From: a virus | Strand: one strand, 5' to 3' | Length of the DNA: 64,000 nucleotides | Virus record (IMG/VR): IMGVR_UViG_3300029908_000007 | Coordinates: 62,001-126,000 of that record | Shown: piece after piece, positions 27,346-33,048 of the stretch | Position numbering within the stretch: position 1 is the first letter of the stretch | Layout: each line of letters begins with the position of its first letter | Made by a program: the position numbers and the translations under genes | The notes under the pieces: model-generated | Database searches by the model: none | The model's input: the letters and a program-made list of their open reading frames with translations, nothing else | Told to the model about the DNA's origin: nothing

Positions 27346-27927
27346 ATGGAAGCCAATGTAAGTTTCGAAGAAGTCGTCCGTGCATGGCTACTTGAGTACG
27401 ACGACCGCTTGCCAAATGACAAAAAAGATCGTATAGAAGCGTTTATAGTGCTTTTGGGCAACCTTGCCGAGTACGGTTTTAAAAAAGAAGACATCACTAA
27501 TACCAGAAAAGAAAAGATCGTTCGCAGCTGTGTCAATCCCAATCACCATAAGAGCAAATTGAAGATATGGGTTTCCATGGTAGTCCAGGCTTTTGAAGCC
27601 GCAGTCCTTATTTACTACGGCACGGTTAAGATCAAAAAAGACGTCGTGACCCCAGAAATGGCAGCTAAGATCGACTCCATCGGTCAGAAAGCCGAAGAAG
27701 GTAGGGAACTTAGAAGCCCTTCAGCTAGTCACGACGACAACCACGACCCCGACGCTCCCTTAAACCTAGAAGGCGATCCTATTGACATCGACATAGCCGT
27801 AAGACAGGCTGTTAGGAATCCCGGAGACGCGCCGGAATTTGAGATCACCGACGCCATGCTAGACGGGATGGACGGTCCTGAGATCGTCTGGGACGCTGAT
27901 TTTAACAAGAAACTGGGCATCGAATGA
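27346..27927 (+). CDS. Unknown protein before the replicative helicase
   Basis: 193 residues. The N-terminal 95 residues are helical and compact. From about 115 on the chain is acidic and proline-rich, probably disordered, ending with an ordered-looking IVWDADFNKKLGIE. It overlaps the helicase gene by 4 nt. Helicase loaders often lie here in phage genomes, but no loader motif is recognised, so the function stays open. Confidence 0.5.
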   Translation: MEANVSFEEVVRAWLLEYDDRLPNDKKDRIEAFIVLLGNLAEYGFKKEDITNTRKEKIVRSCVNPNHHKSKLKIWVSMVVQAFEAAVLIYYGTVKIKKDVVTPEMAAKIDSIGQKAEEGRELRSPSASHDDNHDPDAPLNLEGDPIDIDIAVRQAVRNPGDAPEFEITDAMLDGMDGPEIVWDADFNKKLGIE

Positions 27928-29078
27928 GCGAAGCCGTTAAAAAGTTCCAAGAAGCGCTGGAAAAAGATCAAGCGTATGAAAAGGAACTCAATAAAAAGAA
28001 AAAAGAAGTCCAAGAAAAGCGACTTCTGGTGGATGAGTTCAAGCTCACCAATGAATTGGAGCGCATTACTCAAAACAAATCCGACATGGCTAAAGCTAAG
28101 AATGTCAACGTCGGTATTATGAGTGAAGAAGAAATCGCTGACACGCAGGCCAAAAATAGAGCCTATTTAGAGGGCGCTAAAAACGGCATGTTATTTTTAA
28201 ATGAAAGTTTTAGGAAGTACATCCCGCTATGGGCTGGTAATATCGTTTTAATCGGTGCCAGAACCGGTTCTGGTAAGAGTAGTGCGGCTGCTAATCTGAT
28301 CCTAACAACTATGACGCAAAAGCATCCGGAAACCGGAGAGAATCGTAAAATATTAACTATTAGCTGTGAAGAAACCCCTCTACAAGTCTATAACCGTCTA
28401 ACCTGTTTGGTTAAGGGCTACGACTACAGCGATCAAGACACCTATACCGATCAGCAAAAACAGGATCTTGTGGATTTCAGTGGTAAATGGCCAAGGCTCG
28501 GTATCAGCGTCATCGGAGAGGATGGTAGAGGTCGTACCGACAGCGTGGAAGGTATTCGTAGTATTTTTGAAGCTCTGGTCTCTAGCGGAACCCAATACGA
28601 TTTAATTATCATCGACTACATTCAGAAAATCATCAATAGTAAAAGCAATCCCAGCGCAAAACCTTACGATGTCCTTAAAGAAGTGATGAGCGTTCTTGAC
28701 CATTACAAAAACATATATCCGGCTTGTATAGTTGTGATGAGTCAGCTGAGTTCTCAGAAATCCGGCGATCCCGAAAACGAACTAGATTTTCAAGACCGCC
28801 TGAGAGGATCCAGAGATATTATCACACCGTGTACAGTGGCCATGGAAATGGTTCCCGACTTTCAAAAACTCAAGACTCGTTGGCATATCAGAAAAAACAG
28901 ATATAAGGGTAGTGTTGTTGGCGGTTACATTGATACCGCCTACGATAAAGGCCGTTTTAAGCCCCTAACCCCAGCATGGGAAAAGATGGTGGCTGAGAGA
29001 AATGAAGCCAAAGAACGTGCCGATAGTGTTGGTAAATACGAAAACAAAAAGGGAGATGAAAATGGACAGAAAAACTAG
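27924..29078 (+). CDS. DnaB-type replicative helicase (T4 gp41-like)
   Basis: 384 residues with the RecA-like DnaB C-terminal core. Walker A GARTGSGKSS is at 111-120, an SCEET segment near 146-150, Walker B YDLIIIDYIQ at 224-233, and VVMSQLS near 270. A DnaB N-terminal domain is absent; instead about 90 residues of charged coiled coil come first. It would unwind the fork ahead of the DnaE-like polymerase, with the primase encoded 390 nt downstream. The last residues are lysine-rich. Confidence 0.85.
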   Translation: MSEAVKKFQEALEKDQAYEKELNKKKKEVQEKRLLVDEFKLTNELERITQNKSDMAKAKNVNVGIMSEEEIADTQAKNRAYLEGAKNGMLFLNESFRKYIPLWAGNIVLIGARTGSGKSSAAANLILTTMTQKHPETGENRKILTISCEETPLQVYNRLTCLVKGYDYSDQDTYTDQQKQDLVDFSGKWPRLGISVIGEDGRGRTDSVEGIRSIFEALVSSGTQYDLIIIDYIQKIINSKSNPSAKPYDVLKEVMSVLDHYKNIYPACIVVMSQLSSQKSGDPENELDFQDRLRGSRDIITPCTVAMEMVPDFQKLKTRWHIRKNRYKGSVVGGYIDTAYDKGRFKPLTPAWEKMVAERNEAKERADSVGKYENKKGDENGQKN

Positions 29079-30868: not shown

Positions 30869-31323
30869 TGGATTTATCAGCCTATACCTTAATGCCTGAG
30901 CCTAACAGCACGTACCTCTACAACACCCATACCATACCGGTCCAGGAACCCCTGAGCGGCTCTACGATGGGCCTAATGATGCTTCTATCTAGTCTACAGT
31001 ACCAAGCCCCCTATGTTCCGAGTCAATACCAGCAGGCGGCTAGTCAGGCAGGGAAGGCGGCCTTTATAGACGTAGGGGGACAAGCAACTCAAGATCAAGC
31101 CAATGCGGCTATAGGCAAGATGGGTAAACAAGCTTCAGATACGGCTTTAGGGATCGTCCATTCGATAGGGATCACCGATACAGAGCTTGGAGCTAGCTAT
31201 ATGGTCTATAAAGTCTTAAACGATCGTAAAATCGATCTGAGTATGATTAAAATAGGTGGGGTACGATTTAACTTGACATTGGATCCACAAGATGTTAGCG
31301 TCGGTCTTAACTATGGCTGGTGA
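30868..31323 (+). CDS. Unknown protein
   Basis: 151 residues. Begins with a proline- and tyrosine-rich part, then a Gln/Ala-rich helix (residues 45-65). The end has a strand-rich LDPQDVSVGLNYGW, which could be a membrane or virion-associated segment. GLMMLLSSL near residues 35-43 is hydrophobic but short. It overlaps the metallopeptidase stop by one nucleotide. A structural or membrane role is possible, not shown. Confidence 0.45.
   Translation: MDLSAYTLMPEPNSTYLYNTHTIPVQEPLSGSTMGLMMLLSSLQYQAPYVPSQYQQAASQAGKAAFIDVGGQATQDQANAAIGKMGKQASDTALGIVHSIGITDTELGASYMVYKVLNDRKIDLSMIKIGGVRFNLTLDPQDVSVGLNYGW
31273..31301 (+). promoter_or_regulatory. Possible weak sigma-70 type promoter before the CYTH gene
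   Basis: TTGACA at 31273-31278, 17-bp spacer, TAGCGT at 31296-31301, inside the previous gene. The CYTH ATG at 31313 is 11 nt past it. The -35 and spacing are perfect but the -10 is weak, and the sequence is also coding. Confidence 0.3.
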
Positions 31324-31969
31324 AGAAAAGACTGACAGTATGGTAGTCGAAGAGAAAGCGGTGGCTGAAGAGCCTAAGATCGCTCGATTTACCGAGTTCG
31401 AAACTAAATATAGTTCGGACATCGCCATGCTATCTGCTTTTAAGGCCATCGTGGAAGTTCTGCCTGGTCTATTAGAATTCACTTATGCTGAAGGTCCGGA
31501 TACTTATTTGACAAAACCAGACGGATCTTTTGGCCGGTATCGGGCTGCCAAATATCCCCACGGAACCCAATATGCGCAGTGGACGCTAAAATTCAAACCA
31601 GTGGGAGCCAAAAACAACATCTCTAGATTAGAATACAACTGGCGTGTGGATGGAACTCCGGCCCAGGAGATCCTAGATGGCGCGGAGGCTATGGGGTTTT
31701 CGTTCAATTTTAAAATAAATAAGGGGTGCCACATCTACCGATTCCCAGAATGTACACTCGTTTTTTATTCTGTAAAAGAAGAAGGTAAGACCGAAGAAGA
31801 CTATTTCATAGAGATCGAAATAACAGAACAGACTGTCCATGAGCTTACCGAAGAACAAGCCTGGGAAATCATTAGAAAATATGAGAAGATCTTAGAACCA
31901 GTTGGGGTTAATGCGCAGAAGCGAATGCGTAGAAGTCTGTTCGAGATGTATAGGAAAGATCTCAAATGA
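31313..31969 (+). CDS. CYTH-domain triphosphate tunnel protein
   Basis: 218 residues. EFETK at 28-32 is the ExExK motif of the CYTH superfamily (class IV adenylyl cyclase, thiamine triphosphatase, RNA triphosphatase). Further strands follow with the basic and acidic residues that line the tunnel: GRYRAAKYPHG, QWTLKFKP, RLEYNWRVDG and a distal YFIEIEITE. It would bind a triphosphate with metal. Which reaction it runs cannot be told. The presence of a cyclic-nucleotide sponge in the same early region makes nucleotide-signal chemistry worth testing. The ATG at 31313 lies in the end of the previous gene. A start at 31292 would add seven residues. The next gene begins in its stop codon. Confidence 0.75.
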   Translation: MAGEEKTDSMVVEEKAVAEEPKIARFTEFETKYSSDIAMLSAFKAIVEVLPGLLEFTYAEGPDTYLTKPDGSFGRYRAAKYPHGTQYAQWTLKFKPVGAKNNISRLEYNWRVDGTPAQEILDGAEAMGFSFNFKINKGCHIYRFPECTLVFYSVKEEGKTEEDYFIEIEITEQTVHELTEEQAWEIIRKYEKILEPVGVNAQKRMRRSLFEMYRKDLK

Positions 31970-32505
31970 AAGAGATTCAACTAACACAGGGAAAAGTAGC
32001 GCTAGTAGACGATGAGGATTATGAAGAACTCTCCAAGATGAGTTGGCATGCTTGGTATAATAAAAATAATAATAGTTTTTACACTCATCATTCTGTCTAC
32101 AACGGTAGCGGCAAAAATCCAAGTGTAATCAGAATGCATCGTCACATTTTAGGAATAAAAGATAATAAAGTACACGTAGACCACATAAATGGAAATACTT
32201 TAGACAATAGAAGATGCAATCTAAGGCCGGTAAATAGATCCCAAAATACTACAAATGCAACTAAAGTCAGAAGAGACAATAAATCTGGGTTTAGAGGTGT
32301 GGGGGAATATTTTTACACTGGTGTCAAAAAATGGACAGCTAAGTTAAAAAAAGATGGGAAGGTTATTAGATTGGGATACTTCGACTCCCCAGAAGAAGCT
32401 GCACGCGCTTTCGACAAAGCAGCAAAAGAGCTATATGGAGAATATTGCGGCAAACTTAATTTTGAAGAGGTTCATAAAAACTTGGAACATAAAAAGGAGA
32501 CCTAA
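31966..32505 (+). CDS. HNH homing endonuclease with AP2 domain
   Basis: 179 residues. An HNH core HVDHINGNTLDNRRCNLRPV lies at about 65-85 (His-Asn-Asn/His pattern), and an AP2/ERF DNA-binding domain at about 105-165 (SGFRGVGEYF, then KWTAKLKKDGKVIRLGYFDS and AARAFDKAA). This pairing is common in phage homing endonucleases. It is more AT-rich than its neighbours. Its start codon is the ATGA overlapping the CYTH stop, and its end carries an AAAGGAG site whose downstream gene has lost an ATG (see the next gene). It seems to have been inserted at that junction. Confidence 0.85.
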   Translation: MKEIQLTQGKVALVDDEDYEELSKMSWHAWYNKNNNSFYTHHSVYNGSGKNPSVIRMHRHILGIKDNKVHVDHINGNTLDNRRCNLRPVNRSQNTTNATKVRRDNKSGFRGVGEYFYTGVKKWTAKLKKDGKVIRLGYFDSPEEAARAFDKAAKELYGEYCGKLNFEEVHKNLEHKKET

Positions 32506-32506
32506 T

Positions 32507-32773
32507 ACGCCATACATCAAAACCGAAGAAAGAAACAAGTGGAAAAATGGAATCGCAGAACTGGTAATGGCTATGCATGATCACGGAATCACGCCAGGCG
32601 ACCTTAATTATATTTACACCAAACTTGCCCATCATTACATTCAGCGTAAGGGACTTAATTATACCCATTTGAACGACATCGTAGGTGTTTTTGAATCAGC
32701 GAAGGCTGAATTCCAACGACGTGTCGTGAATCCCTACGAAATTTCGAAGATTGAAGAAAATGGTGATTTGTGA
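32507..32773 (+). CDS. Small gene with apparent ACG start after homing endonuclease insertion
   Basis: 88 residues if translation starts at ACG 32507. The frame is open far upstream inside the homing endonuclease gene, but no ATG, GTG or TTG lies just after the strong AAAAAGGAGA site at 32491-32500. ACG 32507 has ideal 7-nt spacing. The next ATG in frame is at 32567 and would remove 20 residues, including TPYIKTEERNKWKNGIAELV. The likely story is that the original ATG is now used by the homing endonuclease. The protein is helical with a short HHYIQRK segment; function unknown. It overlaps the next gene by 4 nt. Confidence 0.5.
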   Translation, partial: TPYIKTEERNKWKNGIAELVMAMHDHGITPGDLNYIYTKLAHHYIQRKGLNYTHLNDIVGVFESAKAEFQRRVVNPYEISKIEENGDL

Positions 32774-33048
32774 CCGATTCCCCAACCGATATCTATGCTA
32801 TTAGTGCTAGAGTTATGAATGCCGCTAGGATGGCCGTTGGAGCCAACCTAACGCCTGCTGGGACAATGGTTTGCAACACTTTTTCTACAACGCTCAAAGA
32901 GTTTTATGATTTCGCCGAGAACCTAGAAGATGCTATGATTAGGAAGGATCTAAAAAATCTAATCAAAGCCCAAGAAGAAGCGCCAGCCAGACCTATAGTA
33001 GCTTTATGCGCTGGTATGAAAAAGAAATCTAGTGAAGATTCCCAATAG
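32770..33048 (+). CDS. Unknown helical protein
   Basis: 92 residues starting at a GTG in a GTGA overlap. Ala-rich helices (ISARVMNAARMAVGANL) are followed by acidic and basic segments. It is the last plus-strand gene of the early arm. Its end overlaps the 36-residue membrane peptide on the other strand by 20 nt. Function unknown. Confidence 0.5.
   Translation: MTDSPTDIYAISARVMNAARMAVGANLTPAGTMVCNTFSTTLKEFYDFAENLEDAMIRKDLKNLIKAQEEAPARPIVALCAGMKKKSSEDSQ

Follow-up and report, generated by a model that had tools for sequence, protein, structure and literature searches.

In bacteriophage T4, the free-standing HNH gene mobE lies between nrdA and nrdB, and its start overlaps the stop codon of the upstream gene (UAAUGA; PMC2988022). 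A gene of the same HNH class, also placed between two phage genes, is present in the phage record IMGVR_UViG_3300029908_000007 (162,308 bases), of which bases 62,001-126,000 were analyzed here (a stretch of 64,000 nt, hereafter the window). In this case the start and the upstream stop overlap as ATGA. Unlike T4 mobE, the gene encodes a putative AP2-like domain (hereafter HNH-AP2), and its mobility and cleavage activity are putative. Whereas a promoter lies between mobE and the gene downstream of it, the ribosome-binding site of the next gene is here embedded in the tail of the endonuclease gene.

That next gene belongs to the DUF6899 family (PF21840), and ACG stands where its start codon should be. 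Near-cognate initiation is exemplified in bacteria by the AUU starts of infC and pcnB, which the ACG resembles in being a single-base departure from ATG preceded by a good Shine-Dalgarno (SD) sequence. Use of the ACG is putative, however, and no autoregulatory role is known for it. In Escherichia coli, Hecht et al. (2017) reportedly found ACG to be a very weak start. For ATT, PMC10666635 cites that study with a value of about 0.3% of ATG. The closest counterparts of the gene are DUF6899 phage proteins beginning MPYI, to which it is alike in sequence, length and gene boundaries, but those start with ATG, GTG or TTG. A literature search for DUF6899 returned nothing, and a pattern scan of bacterial genomes found no member of the family.

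A tight run of plus-strand genes ends with a 225-residue gene, the HNH-AP2 gene, the DUF6899 gene and a 92-residue gene with a GTG start (Table 1). A first-pass annotation made from the sequence had described the overlap at the HNH-AP2 start, which was confirmed at 31966-31969, and had labeled the upstream gene CYTH, a label that Pfam, PHROGs, NCBIfam and a PDB sequence search did not support. The HNH-AP2 open reading frame contains AAAAAGGAGA close to its end, and its protein terminates in ...AAAAAGGAGACC followed by TAA. The gene closes as CAT AAA AAG GAG ACC TAA; one base later comes ACG in the frame of DUF6899, so that the gene end followed 7 nt on by ACG in the downstream frame, as first described, was borne out. 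The same holds for the lack of an ATG, GTG or TTG near the natural beginning of the downstream gene: between 32438 and 32566 there is none in frame. The nearest canonical starts lie 20 codons downstream and 24 codons upstream of the ACG, the latter inside the HNH-AP2 gene and not mentioned in the earlier reading; the frame is open from 32354. Further downstream, the GTG that overlaps the DUF6899 stop (as GTGA, 32770-32773) has little SD sequence of its own. The 92-residue gene is probably translationally coupled to the DUF6899 gene, and silence of the latter would probably lower expression of this neighbor too.

Table 1. Features of the endonuclease-DUF6899 junction, in window coordinates.
Feature	Position	Strand	Remarks
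Upstream gene, 225 aa, no recognized family	31292..31969	+	Its stop and the HNH start share ATGA
HNH-AP2 endonuclease gene (free-standing; 179 aa)	31966..32505 (TAA)	+	Single copy in the record (own-record search)
Shine-Dalgarno AAGGAG within the last HNH codons	32494..32499	+	Ends 7 nt before the ACG
ACG in place of the DUF6899 initiator codon	32507..32509	+	Aligns with the initiator Met of relatives
DUF6899 gene (88 aa with the ACG as first codon)	32507..32773	+	Matches Pfam PF21840 at 1.4e-22 (model positions 2-84 of 85)
Candidate start upstream: in-frame ATG that would extend the protein by 24 aa, in overlap with the HNH gene	32435..32437	+	Weak SD
Alternative internal ATG, 20 residues lost including conserved PYI..E.R	32567..32569	+	No SD
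Next gene (92 aa)	32770..33048	+	Begins with GTG; shares GTGA with the DUF6899 stop

The gene matches the Pfam profile across the full domain (80.5 bits against a curated cut-off of 27), and the match opens at model position 2. DUF6899 proteins start Met-Pro-Tyr-Ile, where the DNA of this phage reads ACG-Pro-Tyr-Ile. The sole relative in the annotated phage collection (LR756511.1) has ATG TCA TAC ATT AGA GAA against ACG CCA TAC ATC AAA ACC in the window. A profile-guided search of IMG/VR yielded 80 loci, among them this same phage (L006). The conserved [P/S]Y[I/L/V/T] was placed by protein homology, and the codon preceding it was read whatever its identity. All 69 distinct relatives have a canonical initiator directly before this motif (63 ATG, 3 GTG and 3 TTG, with L012 counted as ATG because its “TAT” reading came from a misplaced motif), and the gene studied here lacks one. 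Such a start before PYI is a habit of the family among these relatives and lies outside the Pfam definition. A pattern scan of the whole of IMG/VR, confined to family members that carry PYIKxExR, gave at least 120 matches to ATG-PYIKxExR, of which DUF6899 genes make up at least 118. With ACG as the first codon the scan gave seven matches, a single one of which is DUF6899, namely this phage. Since the family begins M-P-Y-I and the starts of relatives align with the ACG, the ACG lies on the initiator codon itself. The first-pass annotation had proposed a former ATG ACG start, which is off by one codon: it predicts M-T-P-Y-I, a form absent among the relatives. Immediately after the ACG the conserved PYIKTEER is kept, and the reading frame is intact.

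Could an ACG in this setting still start translation? The AAGGAG is complete, and its spacing of 7 nt lies within the 5-9 nt that prevail among the strongly coding genes of the phage. An SD of at least six bases at a spacing of 4-9 nt is found at 0.17% of window positions; because it is so rare, and because the ACG falls exactly on the family initiator column, the arrangement goes beyond chance. In the DUF6899 frame the codon score changes sign at the ACG, from -2.41 for 32435-32506 to +4.88 over the 20 codons of 32507-32566, in what is a short gene. Around the ACG the RNA folds no better than shuffled sequences and shows no stable structure, which speaks against control of this start by a hairpin. 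The UAA of the HNH-AP2 gene lies 1 nt upstream, close enough for termination-reinitiation (PMC10666635). Among 191 called genes, no convincing second ACG start was found in a survey of SD-led near-cognate starts, made with a simple caller that itself missed the DUF6899 gene and may miss others. ARAGORN found no tRNA gene in the window or in the rest of the record, and a phage-encoded altered initiator tRNA was rejected on that ground. With no other convincing ACG start and no tRNA gene found, nothing suggests that the phage is specially adapted to ACG.

The reading favored here, with moderate confidence, is that the DUF6899 start underwent an ATG-to-ACG change private to this phage, and that with the SD intact the ACG supports weak initiation helped by termination-reinitiation. 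A single T-to-C transition in this lineage would account for the change. The HNH-AP2 gene would merely read through the ribosome-binding site in its last codons, and the ACG would probably remain the point where translation begins, with formyl-Met, though much less protein would be made. Initiation there would be driven by a strong and unstructured SD at ideal spacing, together with ribosomes that terminate at the UAA 1 nt before the ACG. On this reading the endonuclease did not take the start codon; at most it may have been carried along with the change or have weakened the selection acting on that codon. Gene finders miss the DUF6899 gene here or assign it a wrong start, and the locus offers a clean natural test of whether ACG is workable for bacterial ribosomes when a strong SD and a stop codon 1 nt before it assist. 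It also cautions that loss of a start codon beside a homing endonuclease need not be insertion damage.

A stronger version, in which the phage truly uses ACG as the natural start of a conserved gene, is plausible but is held only tentatively. On this account a near-dead start would be tolerated or would tune expression down, and the ACG would be kept because the upstream endonuclease supplies terminating ribosomes and a strong SD. Less likely again is that the ACG is a start-loss mutation, with the DUF6899 gene effectively silent and being lost, and the GTGA-coupled gene after it reduced as well. The usual weakness of ACG as a start and the restriction of the change to this lineage would fit such a loss. 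The intact frame, the strong family match, the retained PYIKTEER and the perfect SD argue against it, although a recent loss would look alike.

Did the endonuclease remove the ATG, as the first-pass annotation had suggested? Insertion with the ATG consumed or miscopied at the junction concerns only the origin of the ACG, is compatible with its weak use today and is judged improbable. In its favor, the HNH-AP2 ATG overlaps the upstream stop, the ACG lies 1 nt from the HNH-AP2 stop, and the endonuclease gene, at 36% GC, is AT-richer than most neighboring genes. The endonuclease gene matches Pfam HNH_3 (1.6e-6; 28.1 bits against a cut-off of 24.8) and PHROG 99 (1.2e-34), whereas the AP2 match (1.1e-5, 26.1 bits) is below the curated Pfam cut-off of 33.3. 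Its N-terminus, MKEIQLTQGKVALVDDEDYEEL, is common to its relatives, 22 of which were found in other phage contigs amid unrelated genes, none of them with the neighboring genes of the window; such scattered neighbors are a sign of mobility. These relatives often sit flush with the next gene, and sister endonucleases at -4 to +13 nt keep the next start intact. In at least five sister loci (L087, L097, L099, L100 and L108) the SD of the next gene lies within the last codons of the endonuclease, and the next start is ATG. Carrying the SD in the endonuclease tail is a recurrent arrangement, which appears to let the endonuclease gene lie ahead of another gene while leaving that gene expressed. Because the layout here matches those loci, the DUF6899 gene can be said to have kept its leader, and the start change is therefore most simply explained by a transition that came later or hitch-hiked. 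Removal of the ATG by the endonuclease is opposed by the survival of the native DUF6899 ribosome-binding site immediately before the ACG, by the sparing of the next start in sister loci and by the sufficiency of one T-to-C change; moreover, the ACG aligns with the initiator and not with codon 2.

Relatives with the same flanks but no endonuclease would bear directly on this point, and none were found in searches with the upstream, downstream and neighboring genes. The upstream-gene and downstream-gene searches matched the same phage only, the neighboring genes of the window had no relatives in the DUF6899 or HNH loci, and a search with the DnaB-like gene at 27924-29078 gave only distant Thermus phages. 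Since the pre-insertion junction is visible only in an empty-site relative, loss of the ATG during insertion keeps the low probability given above.

If translation does not begin at the ACG, it could begin at either of the canonical codons that flank it. Initiation at ATG 32435, which would add 24 N-terminal residues encoded within the HNH-AP2 gene, is very unlikely: the ATG is in frame and the frame is open there, but its SD is only GAG at 4 nt, the extension has the negative score given above while the next 20 codons are positive, and relatives begin at PYI and do not share the extension. A start at ATG 32567 or ATG 32573, with the loss of 20 or 22 residues, is slightly less credible still. 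These are the nearest downstream ATGs, but neither has an SD, the family-conserved PYI and E.R motif would be lost, and the lost residues score as coding. The earlier suggestion that the gene may now use ACG or start at 32567 stands in its first part, ACG being the best candidate for the codon now used, while the second is disfavored.

That a single-base sequencing or assembly error produced the ACG is about as improbable as that downstream start. The records are metagenome contigs, and a second assembly of the phage, IMGVR_UViG_3300029955_000008 (L001), is almost the same in sequence and could have reads or a site in common with the first; the two may come from a shared sampling site or related samples. 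The second record has the same bases, ACG included, and matches the first exactly across the 10 kb surrounding the site. In the roughly 96 kb that precede a tandem repeat at its end, the two differ by 2 substitutions, so that two assemblies differing elsewhere agree at the ACG, and the base is not in a homopolymer. Least probable of all is a +1 frameshift at ACC-UAA-U after the internal SD, fusing HNH-AP2 and DUF6899: the SD adjoins the stop codon, DUF6899 is in the +1 frame and the context resembles the prfB site, but the P-site tRNA would re-pair poorly, UAAU terminates strongly and relatives with a fusion were not seen.

Some further features of the records were noted. An 18-bp tandem repeat of 14.6 copies (GGCTCGGCTCGGGTATAC; L114:13506-13768) lies where the sister contig G001 stops and probably broke its assembly, and a 24-bp tandem repeat of about 10 copies (L114:16563-16808) reaches the end of the 162-kb record. 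For the DnaB-like helicase, the annotated phage collection contains only distant relatives, from the large Thermus phages phiYS40 and TMA.
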